Origin: an uncultured Lachnospiraceae bacterium
GTDB lineage: Bacteria > Bacillota > Clostridia > Lachnospirales > Lachnospiraceae
Length of the DNA: 64,000 nt
Reading direction: 5' to 3'
Assembly (NCBI GenBank): GCA_947593975.1
Contig: CANQDW010000004.1
Coordinates: 1-64,000, forward strand
Under the pieces are notes generated by a model. That model had not been told where the DNA came from and did no database searches. It saw nothing but the letters and a program-made list of their open reading frames with translations. Below, piece by piece: positions 3,608 through 22,328 of this stretch. Every line of letters starts with the position of its first letter. Position 1 is the first letter of the stretch. A program made the translations under genes and the position numbers.

Positions 3608-4276
3608 ATGATTAAGCGCAAAAGTACGTTAAAGTATTACTTTAGTGTAGAAGGAGAGACAGAACAGTGGTATCTGGAATGGCTGCAGAAACAGATTAAT
3701 GATAATCCCGCATCAAGCAATAAAGTATCTTTTAATCATCAGATACAGAAAAATCCGCTGAAGCGGGCAAAATCGCTTGCAATAACGGACAAAGTGGAGA
3801 TATGGCATTTGTCTGATTATGAGAGCTCTGAGGAAGTTCATGTAAAGCAATTTACAGAGACTATGGATCGAATGGCAGATACTAAGAGTTTGAAGAAGCA
3901 GATATCTTACAAATTTGGCTATAGCAACTTTACTTTTGATCTTTGGATGATCCTGCATAAGATGGACAGCCGAGGAGCTTTTTCTAATAGAAAACAGTAT
4001 ATTACGCTGATAAATAAGGCTTATGGTGAGAACTTTGAGAACATGGATGAGTTTAAACATGAGGCGAACTTCAAAAGGTGTCTTAAGAAACTTTCTATAG
4101 AAAATGTGATAGAAGCGGTGGATAGAGCTAAAGCAATTATGGAGATAAATAAACAAAACGGATATACGCTGCATCGGTATAAAGGATATTGTTATTATAA
4201 GGAAAATCCATCGCTCACGGTATGGGAAGTCATAGAAAAGATACTGATAAATTGTGGATTACTAAGGATCATGTGA
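3608..4276 (+). CDS. RloB-like / AbiLii-like protein
   Basis: YYFSVEGETEQWYLEWL Toprim-like N-terminus and FTFDLWMILHK; gene starts 5 bp after the ATPase. Confidence 0.75.
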   Translation: MIKRKSTLKYYFSVEGETEQWYLEWLQKQINDNPASSNKVSFNHQIQKNPLKRAKSLAITDKVEIWHLSDYESSEEVHVKQFTETMDRMADTKSLKKQISYKFGYSNFTFDLWMILHKMDSRGAFSNRKQYITLINKAYGENFENMDEFKHEANFKRCLKKLSIENVIEAVDRAKAIMEINKQNGYTLHRYKGYCYYKENPSLTVWEVIEKILINCGLLRIM

Positions 4277-10949: not shown

Positions 10950-11003
10950 GGTGATAATATATAAGTGAAAACTTTGTTTAATCCCATAAGAGAAGGTGAT
11001 TCT

Positions 11004-12039: not shown

Positions 12040-12411
12040 TTGGAATTAGTATATACATCTGATAAAGTCGAAAATCAATGTACCGGCGTAAAAGCTGCAA
12101 AGAAACTATTCGGCGGAGATACATTGCTTGCAACTAGCCTTCTTGCAAGAATAAATGCATTGGAAAAGGCTGAGACTATAAGAGATATTATAGTTCAGCC
12201 GGCATTTCATTTTCATAACTTAGGGAATAAGCGAGGAAAAGATTTACAAGGTTTTTTTGCAATTGATGTTAAATCCAGGAGAGAACAATGGCGCATTATT
12301 CTTCGACCTCTTGATGAGAATAAGAAACCTTATGAACCGTGTTACATAGATCAAATATCGTCGTATGTTAGAATAGTAGAGATAAAGGAGGTTAGCAAGC
12401 ATTATGAGTAA
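12040..12411 (+). CDS. HigB/RelE-like toxin
   Basis: KAAKKLFGGDTLLATSLLARINALEKAETI...LQGFFAIDVKSRREQWRIILRP; TTG start with RBS; overlaps the HigA-like gene by 8 bp. Confidence 0.7.
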   Translation: MELVYTSDKVENQCTGVKAAKKLFGGDTLLATSLLARINALEKAETIRDIIVQPAFHFHNLGNKRGKDLQGFFAIDVKSRREQWRIILRPLDENKKPYEPCYIDQISSYVRIVEIKEVSKHYE

Positions 12412-13480
12412 TTATATTGAATATAATGACAAAATTGCTTTTCATCCGGGGTATTATATTAAGGAGATAGTTGAGGAAAGTGGCTTGACGCAGGAGGATT
12501 TTGCTAAACGGCTTGACACTACTCCAAAGAACCTTAGTCTTCTGATTAGGGGCGAACAGAGTCTTTCTATTGATATTGCAATGAAATTGTCAAGGATGAT
12601 TGGGACAAGTGTTTCTTATTGGCTTAATTTGCAGAATGCTTTTGATGCTTTGATAGCAGAGTTTAAATCCGGCGAAGAACTTGTGCAGGAAAGAACAGTT
12701 TTTTCATTTATTGATTATAAGTACTTTCGTGAGAATTTTAATCTGCCGGATTTGCCCAGAAAAATTGATGAACAGATTGTACAGGTTAGAAACTTTTTGA
12801 ATGTGGCTACTCTTACTGTTTTTATGAAAAGAGATATGGCAGTAAGTTTTCGCAGTGTCACGGGTGAACTGTCAGAAGCTAATATTGTAAAGGCCAATAT
12901 TATGGTACAATTAGCAGCCAATATTGCCTTAAAAACAGCTGCGCCGAAGTTTAACAAAGTTCTTTTTGAAGAAGCAGCAAGGTACGCGCTTACATTAACA
13001 AATAGTCATAGTACGTTCTATCCACTCATAAAAGAAGCATTTTATAAGGCGGGTGTTATTTTTGTAATCCTTCCCAATATTTCCGGGTCAAAAATTAACG
13101 GCGCAACGAAAAAAGTGGGAAATAACATTATGCTGATGGTGAATGACAGACGGCTTAATTCGGATACATTCTGGTTCTCATTATTCCATGAGATTGGACA
13201 TATTATGAATGGTGATTATGGTATTTCTTTTGATGCAGAAACTTGCGGACAGGAAGAGATTGCTGATAAATATGCGGAGGATATGCTGATCCCGTCTGAA
13301 CAGTATAAGCAATTCATTGAGGAAAATAGATTTGATGCCAAAGCAATTAAAACATTTGCAAAAAAAATTGACCGGGATCCGGGAATAGTACTGGGACGAT
13401 TACTGAATGATAAAAAAGTTGACTATAATGACTGGACGTTACACGGGCTTAGGCACAAATATAGAGTAAAAACAACTTGA
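12404..13480 (+). CDS. HigA-type antitoxin: HTH fused to ImmA/IrrE (M78) metallopeptidase domain
   Basis: HPGYYIKEIVEESGLTQEDFAKRL HTH; WFSLFHEIGHIMNGDYG HEXXH; YAEDMLIPSEQY. Confidence 0.85.
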   Translation: MSNYIEYNDKIAFHPGYYIKEIVEESGLTQEDFAKRLDTTPKNLSLLIRGEQSLSIDIAMKLSRMIGTSVSYWLNLQNAFDALIAEFKSGEELVQERTVFSFIDYKYFRENFNLPDLPRKIDEQIVQVRNFLNVATLTVFMKRDMAVSFRSVTGELSEANIVKANIMVQLAANIALKTAAPKFNKVLFEEAARYALTLTNSHSTFYPLIKEAFYKAGVIFVILPNISGSKINGATKKVGNNIMLMVNDRRLNSDTFWFSLFHEIGHIMNGDYGISFDAETCGQEEIADKYAEDMLIPSEQYKQFIEENRFDAKAIKTFAKKIDRDPGIVLGRLLNDKKVDYNDWTLHGLRHKYRVKTT

Positions 13481-14089: not shown

Positions 14090-15706
14090 ATGCCGAAAAA
14101 TCGGGATATGATAAATAAAGAAGTGCAGGAACTGGTTAAAAAAATACAATCCGGTGATAACGAGGCATTGAACAGCCTGTATGTGCACGTTGAAAAATAT
14201 ATTCATTCCCGCGCATGGAAGTGCTTGAATAAGTATAAGATAGATTCAAAACAGAAAGAGGATACAGAGAAGGACCTGTATCAGGCAGGATGGATGGGTC
14301 TGTTGACCGCTTTAAAGAACTATGATCCGGATAAGGGAACGTTGTTTTTGACATATGCCACACATTTTATTGACAGGGAAATGTCAAAAGTAATGAGATC
14401 AGAAATAAGGAGTTCTTCACATGAAGTTAAGAAAAAGGCGGATTATTCGCCTGGTATTGATATTAAAAAAATAAGACGGCTGTTTTCAGACGGAGAGGGA
14501 CTTTCGGTTGCGGAGGCGCCTGACCGCGGGAAATACAGCGCGGTAAGGTGCGCTCTTCAGATTCTTAGAGTCCTTTTTATTTGTACGGATGAAACACATA
14601 GCCTGTCAAAAAAAGAATTAAACGATCTGCTGCAACTTTACCGCAGCGCAAAATATGACAACGGTACTCCCATAGAAGCGAGAAATACGATCACAAGCAT
14701 TTTGGAGGATATTCTGATGGAGTTTGATCCATTGGAATATACAGGTGACAATGATAAAGATTACAAAATCAGATACGAAGGTTATAAAGAGAACCGTCTG
14801 AAAACCAAACATAGCGGGGAAAAAGGAAAAAAGGCGGAGAAAATAACCGGATTTTCCTATGTACATATATTTGATCCTTCGGAATACGATAGGCTGATAC
14901 AGCTGATATGTTTTTCGGATATGTTTTTAAATGAAGAGAAAAGGCGTCTTGTAAGTAAGCTTGTTTCTACAGCCGGCATGTACTATGAGACGCCGTTTTT
15001 TGACGGCGATGAAATCAGATTCATATCCCAATCGATACACGGCAGGTTCAGTACGAGGGCAATGAAGGATAAAAAGCAGTTTGTGGAAAACATCAATTTG
15101 ATCAAACAGGCAATGAATGATCTGTGTCAGATACGGTTTAAATTTAACTGTTATACGGCGGAACACACAATGAGGCCTGCGACAGAATATCTGCATATTT
15201 TAAGCCCTTATCATTTGGTGGTTTATCATGATAATTACTATTGCATTGGCATGAAAAAAGAGGACAGGCGCATATGGCATTACAGAGTGGATCTGATGTC
15301 GGAAGTGGAGATCCTTATGGATGAAAACAAAAAACCTGTTCCCATAGATCTATGCGCGTTTGAAGGACTTCCCATCTGCAACGCATGCTGGGATCCGGAG
15401 AAGTATATGGCGGAACACCTTTACATGGCGTATGACGAACCAAAGGAGATACGCATTAAGATAAGGAATACGGGCTATACCATACTGCATGACTGGTTCG
15501 GGGATCATTATGAGAAGACAGATGAAATAATTGAAACCGATGAGAACGGACGCGGGGCGCAGTATGATATCGTAAAGGTCAGAACTTCGCCGTCAATGAT
15601 TGTACATTGGGCCATGCAGTATGCCGGAGCGGTTGAAATTTTGGACGAGGAAATCAGGGAGAAGATTCGTGATGAAATTGCAAAACTGAAGAAAAAGTAT
15701 GAATAA
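14090..15706 (+). CDS. Sigma-70 region 2-like domain / HTH / WYL-domain fusion regulator
   Basis: DLYQAGWMGLLTALKNYDPDKGTLFLTYATHFIDREMSKVMR (sigma region 2); YSAVRCALQILRVLFICTDETHSLSKKELNDLL (WYL-type HTH); HILSPYHLVVYHDNYYCIGMKKEDRRIWHYRVDLMSEVEI (WYL). Confidence 0.75.
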   Translation: MPKNRDMINKEVQELVKKIQSGDNEALNSLYVHVEKYIHSRAWKCLNKYKIDSKQKEDTEKDLYQAGWMGLLTALKNYDPDKGTLFLTYATHFIDREMSKVMRSEIRSSSHEVKKKADYSPGIDIKKIRRLFSDGEGLSVAEAPDRGKYSAVRCALQILRVLFICTDETHSLSKKELNDLLQLYRSAKYDNGTPIEARNTITSILEDILMEFDPLEYTGDNDKDYKIRYEGYKENRLKTKHSGEKGKKAEKITGFSYVHIFDPSEYDRLIQLICFSDMFLNEEKRRLVSKLVSTAGMYYETPFFDGDEIRFISQSIHGRFSTRAMKDKKQFVENINLIKQAMNDLCQIRFKFNCYTAEHTMRPATEYLHILSPYHLVVYHDNYYCIGMKKEDRRIWHYRVDLMSEVEILMDENKKPVPIDLCAFEGLPICNACWDPEKYMAEHLYMAYDEPKEIRIKIRNTGYTILHDWFGDHYEKTDEIIETDENGRGAQYDIVKVRTSPSMIVHWAMQYAGAVEILDEEIREKIRDEIAKLKKKYE

Positions 15707-15714
15707 AATTATTA

Positions 15715-15732
15715 TGTTCAAAATCTTGAACA
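15715..15732. promoter_or_regulatory. Perfect 7-bp inverted repeat TGTTCAA-aatc-TTGAACA upstream of the HAD-like gene
   Basis: Seen directly; adjacent AT-rich promoter-like sequence. Confidence 0.5.
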
Positions 15733-15784
15733 TTGACATTTACATAATATATATTGAGAATAAAACAGTAAAGGGAGAGATTGA

Positions 15785-16288
15785 ATGAAAAAACACCATA
15801 ATAATTTTGTGGTATTTTTAGATGTTGACGGTGTGTTTAATACCCGGACAACAGTCCAGCGCACGCCTGACGGCTACCAGGGTATAGATGATGCGCGTGT
15901 TAAACTTTTGGCAGATGTAATAAACAAATATGGCGGGGCAGATATTGTTTTATCCTCGGATTGGAAGGAAATGGAACAAACAGATGATGATTATATCTAT
16001 CTTGCCTCAAAGCTTGAAAAGTATGGTTTATCAATATCGGGACATACGGAAGATAAAGCCGGCAAAAACAACAGAGGAGCCGGAATCATAGCATATCTGG
16101 AGGAGCATCCGGAGATAGAGGAATATGTTATTTTGGATGATCATGAATATGATTTTGAAGATTATAAAAAACTTTGGGAAAGATTGCTGCTTACGTCCGG
16201 TTTGGAAAAAGCCCGGTTCGCTGCAAAAGAGCCGGCTGTTGAAGCGATTTTGTTTAGTGACTATATGAGAGAAATTGAGGAACAATGA
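15785..16288 (+). CDS. HAD-like phosphatase (HAD domain of Swiss Army Knife RNA repair type)
   Basis: VVFLDVDGVFNTR motif I; ADIVLSSDWKEM; YVILDDHEYDF. Confidence 0.75.
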   Translation: MKKHHNNFVVFLDVDGVFNTRTTVQRTPDGYQGIDDARVKLLADVINKYGGADIVLSSDWKEMEQTDDDYIYLASKLEKYGLSISGHTEDKAGKNNRGAGIIAYLEEHPEIEEYVILDDHEYDFEDYKKLWERLLLTSGLEKARFAAKEPAVEAILFSDYMREIEEQ

Positions 16289-16347: not shown

Positions 16348-17037
16348 ATGAGTTTTGTGATTGCAGGTGATACACATGGTACATTGGATCTTGCTAAGGT
16401 GATGCAGTATTACGAGGGCAGAGATGCAGAGTTCTCTAAGGATGAGGATTATCTGATTATTTTAGGTGATGTCGGTGTTTGCGGTTTTTCTGCTTCGGAT
16501 GAAGCATTGACAAGAACTACACTTAGGAATCTTCCTGTTACAACATTGTTTATTGACGGTAACCATGAAAATTTTGAACACTTAAATTCATATACGGTAG
16601 ATAAATGGAATGGTGGAAAGGTTCATTTTGTTGAATCGGATATTATTCATTTAATGCGCGGGCAGGTGTTTGATATTGATGGAACAACTTTTTTTACCTT
16701 TGGCGGAGCATACAGTATTGACCGCATGTATAGAGCGGAAGGAATATCTTGGTTTCCGGAGGAATTACCAAACTATAAAGAATATGAGGAAGGTTGGAAT
16801 AATTTGGAATCCTGTGGGTTTAAGGTGGACTACATCTTAAGTCATTCCTGTCCGCGAGAGGTTGCTGCTGCTATGGGATATGGTGAAATGTCTGATGACG
16901 AAGTGGAACTTAGACAATACTTTCAGCGAGTGGCAGATAATACAGAATTTACGGCATGGTATTTCGGTCATTTTCATGAGGATATGGAAGTGGAGGATGT
17001 GTTTTTTTGCCTCTATGATGAATTGACAACGATCTAG
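16348..17037 (+). CDS. Metallophosphoesterase
   Basis: IAGDTHGTLD, ILGDVGVCG, FIDGNHENF, LSHSCP, WYFGHFH metallophosphatase motifs. Confidence 0.9.
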   Translation: MSFVIAGDTHGTLDLAKVMQYYEGRDAEFSKDEDYLIILGDVGVCGFSASDEALTRTTLRNLPVTTLFIDGNHENFEHLNSYTVDKWNGGKVHFVESDIIHLMRGQVFDIDGTTFFTFGGAYSIDRMYRAEGISWFPEELPNYKEYEEGWNNLESCGFKVDYILSHSCPREVAAAMGYGEMSDDEVELRQYFQRVADNTEFTAWYFGHFHEDMEVEDVFFCLYDELTTI

Positions 17038-17063
17038 CAACATTGTGAAAGGAGGTTGTGAAA

Positions 17064-18230
17064 ATGTCAGAGACTAAGATTACGTATTATGAGGATGAAT
17101 GGTTTGATGCTTCTATTTTAAATAAAAATGAGTGTACAAATTACATAGAATTAATGAAAAAATTTTTGAAAGACGGCAAGTACTGCCCACAAAGAGGCAC
17201 CGTCACTTCACCACCATATTATGATCCTGATGGCAGTGATAAGCGTAAGATGAGAACATGCTCCTATTATTGGGAACTGACGCAGTTTTTAAACAAACGG
17301 GAAATATGGTTGGAAAGAGGAAGAGTGGGAGAAACAAGGTATAAATATATTGCGCCAAATAATTGCAAAAAGCCTGAAGAAGTGGAGAAAAAAGGTCAGG
17401 AAAAGGGCAGCGATACAAATGAAATAATAATAAAGGGTAAAAACAACGAAGAGAAATTCCGTTTGAAGTCGGATCAGTTCGGATTTTCGGTTGGAGAAAA
17501 AAAGAGAGAAGAAATTTTTGACAAACATCCATATGGATATCTCTGCAAATTAGTTGAAAAAGAGAAAAAAGAAGAGAAAGATAGAGTTTACGGAGTTATT
17601 GCAGAGTGTATTTATCATACACGAACCCTTGGCGGTGGATTTTTGTGGCAGGTTGATGCAGGGACTCAAAACGGCATATATGAATATAATAGTGGCAGGG
17701 GAAAACCCTACATAGAAGACAGGGTTGATTTGACGCTGTTAGAGATTAAGCATCTGTTTGATTGGATAGAGTTGGAGATGCCGGAAGAAAACGCACAAAA
17801 GAAAGAGGCGGTAGATCTTTTTAATAGAATAGGGGATGAAACGAAGAATGGTCTTTATGCTAAAGTAAAAAAATGCAAGGAAAGACCGGGTGTATCAGAG
17901 TACATAAAATGGCTGCTGCATTTTGGCACGTTTGAAAACTATATTAAGTTTTTCTGTTTCGATGAATTTGTAGATAGTAAGTATAAGACATGGATGCCGT
18001 TTGATATTATGGAATCGAAACTGGTATGGAATGATAAAAGTAAAAGCCTGAGTTGGGACAAAGTAGTTTTTTTGGAAGATCCGACGAAATATAAACAGCG
18101 CAAGAAGTATTCTGTCTATCATCCAGATCGGACTGCCGCAGAATTGGAACAAATGATAGAAAATGTTCGTATTATGACCCTTGCCCGCTCTTATCGTATG
18201 CAGAAAGTTATAGATGGCACTTCAGATTGA
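17064..18230 (+). CDS. Hypothetical protein
   Basis: ggagg at 17051 gives ATG 17064; C-terminal motif shared with the next gene. Confidence 0.65.
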   Translation: MSETKITYYEDEWFDASILNKNECTNYIELMKKFLKDGKYCPQRGTVTSPPYYDPDGSDKRKMRTCSYYWELTQFLNKREIWLERGRVGETRYKYIAPNNCKKPEEVEKKGQEKGSDTNEIIIKGKNNEEKFRLKSDQFGFSVGEKKREEIFDKHPYGYLCKLVEKEKKEEKDRVYGVIAECIYHTRTLGGGFLWQVDAGTQNGIYEYNSGRGKPYIEDRVDLTLLEIKHLFDWIELEMPEENAQKKEAVDLFNRIGDETKNGLYAKVKKCKERPGVSEYIKWLLHFGTFENYIKFFCFDEFVDSKYKTWMPFDIMESKLVWNDKSKSLSWDKVVFLEDPTKYKQRKKYSVYHPDRTAAELEQMIENVRIMTLARSYRMQKVIDGTSD

Positions 18231-18268
18231 CATGGCTATTTTTAGAATCTATGAAATGGAGATGTATT

Positions 18269-19255
18269 ATGGAAACGATTACAGAGTATTTACAAAATAA
18301 TCCGGTATATTATGATTTTTCCGATGACTGTACGGAGAGCGCTGCTTACCGGGAAAAGAAAGGATATGAAAAATATTTTATTTACCGTTCTCCCAAGCCT
18401 GACGTAAAAGAAATCTATCCGGCTGCTGCCTCCGCCATAGAAAAGAATTATCAGTTATATGGCAAGGTAGGCGATCCGGATGCAGAAAGCAATCTTCTGC
18501 AAAACATTTATTCGCTTTTATGGCCGGAGATCAAAGAAAAGAAAAACGGATATATGATGTATAAGGACAGGGAATCAGGTGAGGACAGAATCTATTCCGA
18601 TACGATGACGAGCTGCCAGACCGTTTTAAACAGCTATGTGAAAAGCAAGATGCCGGAGGTATTCGAAAAGTATGATGTAAAATACGTGTCCGTCAAAATG
18701 TGCATAGAACTTTATGAAACGGATCCTGCATTTAAAAAGCTGCTTGAAGAAAGTAAAGATTTAAAGAATTTTATCAAGGTGTACCATACGCTTGGGAATT
18801 ACATTCCGGTTCCTTATGGGTTTAATGGCGCCAGAAGCGGTTATTTCGGTTCGCATGACAGCTGGGACTTAACTTTGATGAAAATAAAAGAATACTATGA
18901 CGCCGTAAAGGAAAATCCGAGTAATTCCGGAGAACTATTCGTATGTCCTTCGGAAATAAGAATAATGGAATTGCTGCATTGTGACAAAGAAATGCTCAGC
19001 TGTTATCAATGGCTAAATAGTTTTGCGGGATGGGAAGATTTTATTGAGAAAAATTTCCTTCAGGACTTTGTCGGAGAGGATTATCAGCCGATTCCGTTTT
19101 GTAAGGACCACTCCTGGAAACGCCCGCAGATATTGGATAATTTCGATGAATTTTTCAGGAACGCAGGGCAGATGATTGAGAAGCGAAGCGGAAGGATGAT
19201 CGAAGAGATCAAAGAGATAGAAAAAAGAAAGAGGCAGTCTATACGGATAAGTTGA
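18269..19255 (+). CDS. Hypothetical protein, C-terminus paralogous to 17064-18230
   Basis: RBS ggagatg before ATG 18269; WLNSFAGWEDFIEKNFLQDFVGEDYQPIPF motif. Confidence 0.65.
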   Translation: METITEYLQNNPVYYDFSDDCTESAAYREKKGYEKYFIYRSPKPDVKEIYPAAASAIEKNYQLYGKVGDPDAESNLLQNIYSLLWPEIKEKKNGYMMYKDRESGEDRIYSDTMTSCQTVLNSYVKSKMPEVFEKYDVKYVSVKMCIELYETDPAFKKLLEESKDLKNFIKVYHTLGNYIPVPYGFNGARSGYFGSHDSWDLTLMKIKEYYDAVKENPSNSGELFVCPSEIRIMELLHCDKEMLSCYQWLNSFAGWEDFIEKNFLQDFVGEDYQPIPFCKDHSWKRPQILDNFDEFFRNAGQMIEKRSGRMIEEIKEIEKRKRQSIRIS

Positions 19256-20179: not shown

Positions 20180-21769
20180 ATGATGAGCAAAGTTATTTTA
20201 CATTATAATGATGATAATAAGGATGAGATTAAGAAACAAATTGAGGAGTATTCACATTATGATAATAATTCGAATCTGGTTATAGATAAATATGTGCATG
20301 TCATTGTAGATGAGGGCGTAACCAGCATTGGAGAAAGTGCGTTTATTTTCTGCAGCAGCCTTACAGGTATAAAGATACCGGAAAGTGTAACTGGTATAGG
20401 GGATATGGCATTTGCTGGCTGCAGCAGTCTTACGAGTATAGAGATACCGGGAAGCGTGACCAAAATAGGAAAGGGTGCATTTGGTGGATGCAGCAGCCTT
20501 ACAGGTATAGAGATACCAGGGAGCGTAACCGACATAGGGGATAAGGCATTTTTGGGCTGCAGCAGTCTTACGAGTATTAAAGTAGCAGATAATAATAAGA
20601 TTTATGATAGCAGAGATAATTGTAATGCAATTATTAAAACAGAATCCAACACGTTAATTGCAGGCTGTAAAAACACCAAAATACCGGGAAGTGTAACCGG
20701 CATAGGGTATAGAGCATTTGAGGAATGCAGCAGTCTTGCGGGTATAGAGATACCGGGAAGTGTAACCGACATAGGGGATATGGCATTTGCTGGCTGCAGC
20801 AGTCTTGCGGGTATAGAGATACCGGGAAGTGTAACCGACATAGGGGATATGGCATTTGCTGGCTGCAGCAGTCTTACGAGTATAGAGATACCGGGAAGCG
20901 TAACCGGCATAGGGTATAGAGCATTTGAGGGATGTAGCAGCCTTACGAGTATTAAAGTAGCAGAAAATAATAAATTTTATGATAGCAGAAACGATTGTAA
21001 TGCAATTATTGAAACAGAAAGCAATACACTAATTTCAGGCTGTAAAAACACTAAAATACCAAAAAGCATAACCAACATTGACGAATGTGCATTTGCCGGA
21101 TGCAGCAGTCTTACGAGTATAGAGATACCGGGAAGCGTGACCAAAATAGGAAAGGGTGCATTTGGTGGATGCAGCAGCCTTACAGGTATAGAGATACCAG
21201 GGAGCGTAACCGACATAGGGGATATGGCATTTGATGGATGCAGCAGTCTTACGAGTATAGAGATACCGGGAAGCGTAACTGGTATAGGGTATAGAGCATT
21301 TGGTGGCTGCAGCAGCCTTACGAGTATAGAGATACCGCAAAGCGTAACCGGTATAGGGCATTGGGCATTTGGTGGCTGCAGCAGTCTTATAGGTATAGAG
21401 ATACCGGAAAGCGTGACCAAAATAGGAACGGGTGCATTTGGTGGCTGCAGCAGCCTTACGAGTATTAAAGTAGCAGAAAATAATCAATTCTATGATAGCA
21501 GAAATGATTGTAATGCAATTATTAAAACAGAAACCAACATGTTGATTACGGGCTGTAAAAACACTAAGATACCGGAAGGCATTACGAGCATAAGGAATTA
21601 TGCATTTAGTGGCTGCAGCAGTCTTACGAGTATAGAGATACCGGGAAGCGTAACCAGCATAGGGTATAGTGCATTTGAGGGCTGCAGCAGCCTTACGAGT
21701 ATTATATGGCAGGATAAGACCTACGGCAGCGCATATGAATTTATAAAGGCGTTTAAAACCGGACAGTAA
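20180..21769 (+). CDS. BspA-type (LRR_5) leucine-rich repeat protein
   Basis: Repeated 23-aa units AFxGCSSLTSIEIPGSVTxIGxx; no signal peptide. Confidence 0.85.
   Translation: MMSKVILHYNDDNKDEIKKQIEEYSHYDNNSNLVIDKYVHVIVDEGVTSIGESAFIFCSSLTGIKIPESVTGIGDMAFAGCSSLTSIEIPGSVTKIGKGAFGGCSSLTGIEIPGSVTDIGDKAFLGCSSLTSIKVADNNKIYDSRDNCNAIIKTESNTLIAGCKNTKIPGSVTGIGYRAFEECSSLAGIEIPGSVTDIGDMAFAGCSSLAGIEIPGSVTDIGDMAFAGCSSLTSIEIPGSVTGIGYRAFEGCSSLTSIKVAENNKFYDSRNDCNAIIETESNTLISGCKNTKIPKSITNIDECAFAGCSSLTSIEIPGSVTKIGKGAFGGCSSLTGIEIPGSVTDIGDMAFDGCSSLTSIEIPGSVTGIGYRAFGGCSSLTSIEIPQSVTGIGHWAFGGCSSLIGIEIPESVTKIGTGAFGGCSSLTSIKVAENNQFYDSRNDCNAIIKTETNMLITGCKNTKIPEGITSIRNYAFSGCSSLTSIEIPGSVTSIGYSAFEGCSSLTSIIWQDKTYGSAYEFIKAFKTGQ
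20300..21720 (+). repeat. 69-bp coding tandem repeat array (LRR units)
   Basis: By-eye exact 69-bp tandem copies at 20727-20795 and 20796-20864; 124-bp exact copy 20420-20543 = 21101-21224. Confidence 0.85.
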
Positions 21770-21827
21770 TATTAAGATAGTACAAGGAGTCTGTTGTTAT
21801 TGACGAAACGGAAATAAGGAGAAAAAA

Positions 21828-22328
21828 ATGAAAAAGGATGATAATACACGTACAGAACCTCAGTATCATGAAAAAGCGGTTGTTTTACATTATAATGATG
21901 ATAATAAGGATGAGATTAAGAAACAAATATTTTATTCTGAGAGACCGGTTCATGTGATTGTAGATGAGGGCGTAACACGCATAGGGAATGATGCATTTAG
22001 AGGATGCAACGGTCTTACGAGTATTAAAGTAACAGAAAATAATCAAATATATGACAGCAGGAATGATTGTAATGCAATTATTGAAACAGAAATCAACATG
22101 TTGATTAGGGGCTGTAAAAACACCAAGATACCGGAAGGCATTACAAGCATAGGGAATTATGCATTTTGTGATTGCGACAATCTTGCGAGTATAGAGATAC
22201 CGGGAAACGTAACTAGCATAGGGTATGAGGTATTTTGGGGCTGTAGCAGCCTTACTAGTATTATATGGCAGGATAAAACCTACGGCAGCGCAGATGAATT
22301 TAAAAAGGCACTTAAAGCCGGACAGTAA
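21828..22328 (+). CDS. BspA-type LRR protein, short paralog
   Basis: Shares N-term VLHYNDDNKDEIKKQI and C-term SIIWQDKTYGSADEF with neighbours. Confidence 0.8.
   Translation: MKKDDNTRTEPQYHEKAVVLHYNDDNKDEIKKQIFYSERPVHVIVDEGVTRIGNDAFRGCNGLTSIKVTENNQIYDSRNDCNAIIETEINMLIRGCKNTKIPEGITSIGNYAFCDCDNLASIEIPGNVTSIGYEVFWGCSSLTSIIWQDKTYGSADEFKKALKAGQ

Follow-up and report, generated by a model that had tools for sequence, protein, structure and literature searches.

A sigma-70 region 2 fused to a WYL transcription factor in gut Clostridia: a proposed ligand-gated, sigma-like initiation factor without region 4

Introduction

Sigma factors normally carry two tethered promoter-reading domains and are switched by separate proteins. 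One gene in the window, by which we mean the whole 64,000-nucleotide stretch of DNA analysed, raises the question of what a single chain does when it joins a sigma domain directly to a ligand-sensing regulator. The initial annotation had assigned its N-terminal ~110 aa to sigma-70 region 2, its middle to an HTH and its C-terminus to a WYL domain, had seen no obvious region 4, and had inferred a ligand-gated factor that contacts core RNA polymerase (RNAP) or the -10 element. Our literature search, which did not extend to subscription papers or UniProt architectures, found no paper describing sigma region 2 together with WYL, and among the WYL fusions named in the part of PMC4012209 available to us none includes a sigma domain. 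Each part is known; a combination of sigma and WYL modules like this one did not turn up in that search. Our preferred reading, to which we give a probability of about 0.6 and for which there are no bench data, makes the protein a ligand-gated, sigma-like initiation factor dedicated to one operon.

Domain composition of the fused protein

The reading frame of the fused gene is intact (Table 1); its ATG start follows a ribosome-binding site, GGGGGGAG, and a DUF4760 gene ends two bases upstream of position 14090.

Table 1. Features of the fused gene and of the region downstream of it, with the evidence for each.
Feature	Position	Strand	Residues and evidence
Sigma2-wHTH-WYL-WCX protein	14090..15706	+	538 aa; ORF and translation, Pfam, homologues
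Sigma-70 region 2 domain	14114..14413	+	residues ~9-108; Sigma70_r2, PDB profile, AF2/Foldseek
Linker without region 4	14414..14539	+	residues ~109-150; pLDDT, split-sigma alignment, TIGR02937 coverage
Winged HTH	14540..14785	+	residues ~151-232; split-locus WYL protein start, AF2, Foldseek
Helical middle segment	14786..15088	+	residues ~233-333; AF2
WYL domain	15089..15313	+	residues 334-408; Pfam E 3e-7, 30.8 bits, cut-off 21.8
WCX-like C-terminal extension	15443..15700	+	weak Pfam WCX E 0.14; PADLOC WYL model, Foldseek
Palindrome TTCAAAATCTTGAA, putative dimer operator, -38 to -25	15717..15730	+	no binding data
CATAAT, putative -10	15743..15748	+	transcription start predicted near 15755
HAD_SAK_2 phosphatase-like gene, first behind the putative promoter	15785..16288	+	Pfam E 8.5e-21
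Calcineurin-like metallophosphatase	16348..17037	+	Pfam E 4.2e-10
DUF6994 protein, probably same operon	17058..18230	+	Pfam E 6.7e-10
Second DUF6994 protein	18227..19255	+	Pfam E 1.3e-11; 4-nt overlap with the first

At the N-terminus, Pfam detected Sigma70_r2 at residues 61-104 (E 8.1e-8, 32.4 bits vs a cut-off of 24), and many NCBIfam sigma models hit the protein at residues 4-150 only. A profile of the N-termini (33 rows) gave 74 PDB matches at E ≤0.01, the best at 1e-12 (1l0o chain C); the 60 matches listed of these 74 were exclusively sigma factors. The AlphaFold2 (AF2) model of residues 1-125, computed from 33 alignment rows, reached pLDDT 82 with four helices (3-20, 24-47, 53-77 and 86-108), and its best 50 Foldseek matches were all sigma factors, at modest E-values (2e-3 and up), a probability of ~1 and a target-normalised TM of ≤0.78. 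A prediction without the region 2 fold would have refuted the initial annotation; sequence, profile and predicted structure instead agree with it.

Region 4 was not found in the fused protein: TIGR02937 covers only model positions 2-86 of 165 (34.6 bits vs a cut-off of 42.9), and the two split relatives compared, L035 and L041, align over nearly the whole model. The stretch that forms region 4 in those split sigma factors has no counterpart in the alignment of fused proteins, and Pfam did not find region 4 in the two other fused members on which it was run. Residues 108-123 of the linker have low pLDDT in the AF2 model. We also considered a region 4 hidden in the longer linkers of L023-L027 and rejected it, the inserts being unlike region 4 of the split relatives in the alignment.

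The winged HTH (wHTH) begins at the point that matches the start of the stand-alone WYL proteins in split loci. AF2 placed its helices at 151-165, 174-189 and 198-212, and Foldseek found similarity to full-length PafBC and DriD; both this HTH and the C-terminal WYL domain, which exceeds its Pfam cut-off, had been correctly recognised in the initial annotation, as had the lack of an obvious region 4. From its position, we infer that the helical segment which follows is the counterpart of the linker or three-helix bundle in WYL activators. The PADLOC WYL model covers residues 327-532 (E 5.7e-18), and the alignment of fused relatives contains residues conserved across WYL-WCX. The full-length AF2 model (pLDDT 76) matched PafBC bound to RNAP (E 1e-9), DriD, BrxR and CapW in Foldseek; because its pTM is 0.50, the placement of the domains relative to one another remains uncertain. 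The protein therefore satisfies the wHTH-WYL-WCX criterion for a WYL transcription factor, the WCX match being weak. Of the criteria for the sigma-70 family it has region 2, in sequence and in fold, and lacks region 4; because this last criterion fails, we refrain from assigning it to that family. Pfam found no receiver domain, so that the criterion for a PhyR-type mimic fails as well.

Distribution of fused relatives

A contig scan identified 38 loci encoding relatives, mostly from Lachnospiraceae and other gut or rumen Clostridia. The fused architecture is common to ~30 Lachnospiraceae/Clostridia genomes, and the relatives come from metagenome-assembled genomes as well as from isolates (Eubacterium ruminantium FB3002, Lachnospiraceae AB2028 and NC2008). 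The 28 fused relatives aligned share 37-67% identity with the 538-aa protein. An artefactual merger of two adjacent genes by sequencing error, the other outcome that would have undone the initial annotation, is ruled out because ~30 fused homologues exist, several of them from isolates.

Within the family, fused relatives are rare: among 397 genomes they were found in the source genome, G135, G357, G335 and G313, and the other matches were sigma-less or truncated. The fused gene also occurs in two genomes from another family of the same class. Phage and plasmid records hit the sigma part or the WYL part, each separately. We rejected phage origin or carriage, since the single viral contig found matches the WYL part only and no viral contig carries an exact promoter match.

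Split relatives and repeated fusion

In four loci (L035, L037, L039 and L041) the wHTH-WYL protein is encoded separately, as 403-420 aa with 37-41% identity to residues ~140-537 of the fused protein. Directly upstream, overlapping the WYL gene or ≤13 bp away from it, lies the gene of a 185-217 aa sigma factor. Two of these sigma factors exceed the TIGR02937 cut-off of 42.9 bits (L035, 45.6 bits, model positions 8-163; L041, 46.4 bits, positions 4-164), region 4 included in the aligned span, and that of L039 has Sigma70_r4 at E 3.8e-5. In the alignment, fused members match the sigma gene up to residue ~110 and the WYL gene from residue ~150. Within the loci compared, the layout of SigO-RsoA, in which regions 2 and 4 lie on two proteins, does not apply, since the split sigma factors carry both regions and the fused proteins lack region 4.

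In trees of the wHTH-WYL part, the main fused group forms one clade (support 100/99 and 99/99 in two trees), the split loci fall outside it, and the sigma-less WYL proteins serve as the outgroup. L088, which is fused and without region 4, pairs with the split locus L041 (support 100/99), and a constraint placing all fused proteins in a single clade was rejected (p-AU 9.6e-5; the group was defined after the similarity of L088 and L041 had been noticed). From this grouping and this rejection we therefore infer, on phylogenetic grounds, that the sigma and WYL gene pair was fused at least twice, with region 4 lost each time.

Region 2 was retained in every complete member of the main fused clade. 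Its dN/dS was 0.07-0.39 in 10 of 11 pairs (0.81 in the remaining pair, which has low dS); WYL-WCX evolved more slowly, at dN/dS ~0.1 in most pairs. The top-conserved positions of region 2 include L63, G67, T88, Y89, A90 and I94, and the region 2.3 motif F-x-T-Y-A-x-x-x-I is among the most conserved: T88, A90 and I94 are each present in 31 of 32 sequences and Y89 in 29 of 32, with F otherwise. An ungapped alignment to a housekeeping sigma factor pairs T88 and Y89 with the region 2.3 residues that in sigma-70 hold the flipped -11 A.

A further split locus, L036, has a sigma gene (L036:5676-5999) from which region 2 is gone; only the region 4 part is left, and it overlaps the end of carB. The locus keeps its WYL gene and one promoter motif despite this. 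In three genomes (L035-L037) the sigma-WYL pair lies directly downstream of carB, and the fused loci lie in many different places; this difference in setting therefore suggests that the sigma-WYL cassette moves.

A composite promoter motif downstream of the regulator

A conserved block first surfaced when the gap behind the fused gene was aligned. All loci were then searched with the -10 block CTCCATAATATnnGTG alone, the palindrome not being part of the query, and many copies were found, preceding genes that lie downstream of the regulator; a single locus often had several. Upstream of each copy lay a palindrome at one fixed distance. The resulting consensus, which precedes genes downstream of the regulator, is a palindrome TTCAAAATnTTGAA, exactly 12 nt, and then CATAATAT-nn-GTG. 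In the 47 instances outside the window, each CATAAT letter is 91-100% conserved and T at -1 is 100% conserved. If CATAAT is the -10, the palindrome falls at -38 to -25, the normal site of sigma region 4. The copy in the window (15717-15748) has the same 12-nt spacing and departs from the consensus at +1.

A position weight matrix (PWM) built without the window detected one site in its 64 kb (15713-15762, score 29.3), all else scoring ≤8; the maximum in ten random 64-kb sequences (640 kb) was 8.5, and leave-locus-out scores were 17.5-64.4. Hits were present in 32 of 36 loci. L011 and L021 lack the motif where the contig sequence stops at the gene, and L020 and L040 lack it despite having downstream sequence, and so are real exceptions. 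All 56 hits scoring ≥20 in related loci share the regulator's strand, and 42 of them fall within 150 bp before the next start. The motif occurs in loci of the split, the fused and the independently fused kind; in the loci of sigma-less WYL relatives nothing scored above 16, and the motif is absent there.

The palindrome is symmetric at a mean of 5.83 of 7 pairs at offset 0, vs 0.8-2.7 at other offsets and 2.45 expected for random letters. Its halves change together by lineage (TGCAAAATTTTGCA in L031-L032, TTAAACATGTTAAA in L037), and none of 5000 swaps reached the observed symmetry. Because the instances are related by descent, these statistics are descriptive and overstate independence. The -10 block is constant across split and fused loci while the palindrome varies by lineage, a pattern that, as far as sequence comparison can tell, fits two separate readers. 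No conserved sigma-A -35 hexamer was found alongside the motif.

Upstream of the fused gene itself, no conserved promoter was found across clade 1; in clade 2 a sigma-A-like TTGACA..TAAAAT lies there. In L041 the split sigma gene itself is preceded by a motif, at position 3756, a hint of autoregulation in this lineage. In four loci (L018:8482, L019:3682, L023:8850 and L027:9031) a terminator-like stem lies directly behind the predicted transcription start (in L018, GAATTG..CAATTC followed by a T-run), a possible attenuator. Another candidate operator, GATATACnGG, was rejected, its occurrences being mostly scattered inside genes.

Co-occurrence of promoter motif and gene

Searched by pattern rather than by PWM, the source genome contains the promoter only once, at 15717-15755. 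Among the 397 family genomes the pattern was found in 13, comprising all six genomes with the gene (five fused and one truncated, G330) vs 7 of the 391 others (hypergeometric p 3e-10); a control pattern matched two of the 397. The seven gene-less genomes mostly have single three-mismatch matches. In one of them, G252, the site has one mismatch and lies at the beginning of a contig, which may simply not reach the gene. Some gene-bearing genomes had fed the consensus, directly or via near-identical loci; the source genome and G357 had not. At L112 (G330:C10), the sigma2-WYL protein is reduced to its last ~100 residues, yet the locus retains two strong promoter motifs and an intact set of downstream genes.

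Proposed mechanism and competing readings

We propose that region 2 would dock on core RNAP and would recognise and melt the -10 element CATAATAT, and that the WYL-WCX part would dimerise, setting two wHTHs on the palindrome, where they would stand in for the missing region 4. The factor would be switched on when WYL binds its ligand, probably a nucleic-acid fragment or nucleotide, and the adjoining genes for phosphatases and putative RNA-end- or nucleotide-processing enzymes would then be transcribed. PafBC inserts its HTH between DNA and sigma domain 4 at a -26 motif, and DriD holds RNAP on promoters whose elements are poor (PMC11804915, PMC12340889). In the fused family the palindrome lies where the PafBC HTH binds, region 4 is missing, and the chain supplies its own region 2 alongside a nearly invariant -10. 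Most simply, then, the WYL dimer would replace region 4 and region 2 would read the -10. Domain make-up, conservation, the evolutionary series, the composite promoter and gene co-occurrence are observed; core binding, -10 reading by region 2, dimerisation, the ligand, activation as opposed to repression, and the biological role are inferred. The action at the -10 that the initial annotation had proposed is supported, though not proven, by the separate sigma neighbours, two fusions without region 4, a constrained region 2 and the conserved promoter, and its core RNAP contact and ligand gating remain inferences only. There is no direct evidence for core binding or transcription, the conserved 2.2/2.3 positions and the composite promoter being indirect only, and the faster evolution of region 2, the motif-less L020 and L040 and the +1 mismatch in the window's own copy count against our reading.

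The protein could instead be a WYL activator of the ordinary sigma-A holoenzyme, its dimer at -38 to -25 and sigma-A reading CATAAT, with the attached region 2 only tethering or competing. We hold this to be unlikely without dismissing it: PafBC and DriD work as activators of the housekeeping holoenzyme where promoters lack a good -35 (PMC11804915, PMC12340889), CATAATAT is near the housekeeping -10, sigma-A might read CATAAT, which is one base off TATAAT, and the split loci, where the sigma factor keeps region 4, show identical promoter geometry. It sits poorly, however, with a -10/+1 block, CCATAATATnnGTG, conserved far past sigma-A needs, with sigma-less WYL loci that have no motif, and with a region 2 never lost from complete fused members. 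That region 2 is under purifying selection and was joined twice also speaks against a repressor, in which the WYL dimer would block the -35 of a sigma-A-type promoter until ligand release and region 2 would have some other role or none; the motif, moreover, offers no conserved -35 hexamer of that type. We consider repression improbable, even though the fold is close to that of the WYL repressors BrxR and CapW, repression is the mode of several WYL defence regulators, the palindrome over the -35 is where repressor operators typically lie, and the motif is downstream of the regulator, on target genes.

Two further readings were weighed. The block might be no promoter and might act in the RNA leader, as a hairpin that masks the ribosome-binding site: 16 of the 47 instances allow CTCCATAATATnnGTG to pair with a downstream arm over 14-18 of 18 pairs (95% of shuffles gave ≤13, with a maximum of 16), and in most of these 16 the arm carries the Shine-Dalgarno sequence. 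Yet 27 instances have ≤12 of 18 pairs, as shuffles do, and keep block, palindrome and spacing all the same, with -11, -10 and -9 of CCATAATATnnGTG invariant in these hairpin-free instances. Present in only ~1/3 of instances, the hairpin was rejected as the cause of -10 block conservation, and if transcription began inside its 5' arm, only promoter-derived RNA would have an accessible ribosome site; this explanation is very improbable. Finally, region 2 might serve as a decoy for an anti-sigma factor or partner, in the manner of PhyR, where a sigma-like domain is reused as a mimic (PMC8103513). We find this scarcely credible: the receiver domain is absent, the annotated neighbours include no recognised anti-sigma gene (although many of them belong to unknown families), and the -10-like element in the target promoters would go unexplained.

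In L010, L013-L016, L022, L028, L034, L035, L039 and L088 the -10/+1 block and a downstream arm that contains the Shine-Dalgarno sequence form the 5' and 3' arms of an inverted repeat, so that RNA begun upstream would mask the ribosome site and RNA begun at the promoter would leave it open. The same arrangement is known from phage T4 gene e.

Neighbouring genes and possible role

The HAD protein encoded first behind the putative promoter is of the RNA-repair SAK type, and a homologue of its gene adjoins the split pair in L041. The metallophosphatase cluster recurs near the regulator in 10 other loci; homologues of the first DUF6994 protein are found in split loci L035-L037 and L041, and those of the second in L008, L012 and L025. 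Across loci, neighbour or target genes encode calcineurin-like phosphatases (one related to ApaH, PrpE and the Pnkp phosphatase), NT5C-like HAD, HD, GNAT and DUF6994 proteins and several families without a Pfam match, and an AAA_33 neighbour looks like a nucleotide or polynucleotide kinase. Similar operons are headed by sigma-less WYL relatives, one of them (L087) with a microbial PARG. Nucleic-acid ends or ADP-ribose compounds have been put forward as the signals that WYL regulators sense (PMC9503650; PMC4012209). On the basis of the neighbouring enzymes, the PARG operon and these proposed ligands, a response to RNA-end or nucleotide damage is a reasonable but weakly supported guess. A known defence system was rejected, PADLOC giving only generic WYL, AAA and HTH-ImmA matches and a DUF1848 model at 10965.

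Positions 12040-13480, immediately before the regulator, contain a small ORF followed by an overlapping HTH-ImmA/IrrE protein, in a toxin-antitoxin-like layout. Downstream of the operon (20180-22328) lie serial BspA-type leucine-rich repeat proteins, similar ones occurring near L016 and L018. In L085 (G123:C20) a sigma-less WYL relative stands directly behind an apparent CRISPR array, with Cas1- and Cas2-like genes upstream, as judged by eye.

Implications and comparison with known systems

The fused family suggests that a ligand-sensing transcription factor can take the place of the -35-reading domain of a sigma factor, so that sigma factor and one-component regulator would be joined in one chain. 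We rate at slightly better than even the broader claim of a class of initiation factors in which region 4 was replaced at least twice by a ligand-gated WYL-wHTH dimer, so that one chain senses, selects the promoter and melts it. The idea is directly testable because likely ancestors, two independent fusions and a defined target promoter are available. The family is also an entry to an uncharacterised, phosphatase-rich operon type of gut Clostridia.

Among known systems, MzaA of the MZA anti-phage system (NCBIfam NF041931) is likewise a large, defence-linked protein with a sigma-70 region 2 segment, but its match to the fused protein is weak and confined to region 2 (PADLOC E 0.0017), not full-length, and the system is a different one. 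RtcR (CARF-AAA-HTH) is alike in logic, as a nucleic-acid sensor controlling an RNA-end-healing operon, although it is a sigma-54 AAA+ activator that shares no domains with the fused protein. BrxR and CapW have the wHTH-WYL-WCX fold and adjoin the genes they control, but they lack a sigma domain and repress defence operons. In SigO-RsoA, the functions of regions 2 and 4 are separable onto different proteins (PMC8103513); that type still has region 4, whereas in the fused protein wHTH-WYL appears to replace it in the chain. Sigma-70 factors of the SigF/SigG/FliA type have a region 2 homologous to that of the fused protein in sequence and predicted fold; unlike them, the fused protein lacks region 4, and its -35 reading apparently falls to a ligand-binding regulator. 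PafBC and DriD are the top Foldseek matches of the wHTH-WYL-WCX part, and PafBC also places its HTH near -26 in place of sigma domain 4 (PMC11804915). Their WYL domain binds single-stranded DNA, whereas the ligand of the fused protein is unidentified; and where PafBC and DriD have no sigma domain and use the housekeeping sigma holoenzyme, the fused protein carries region 2 in its own chain.
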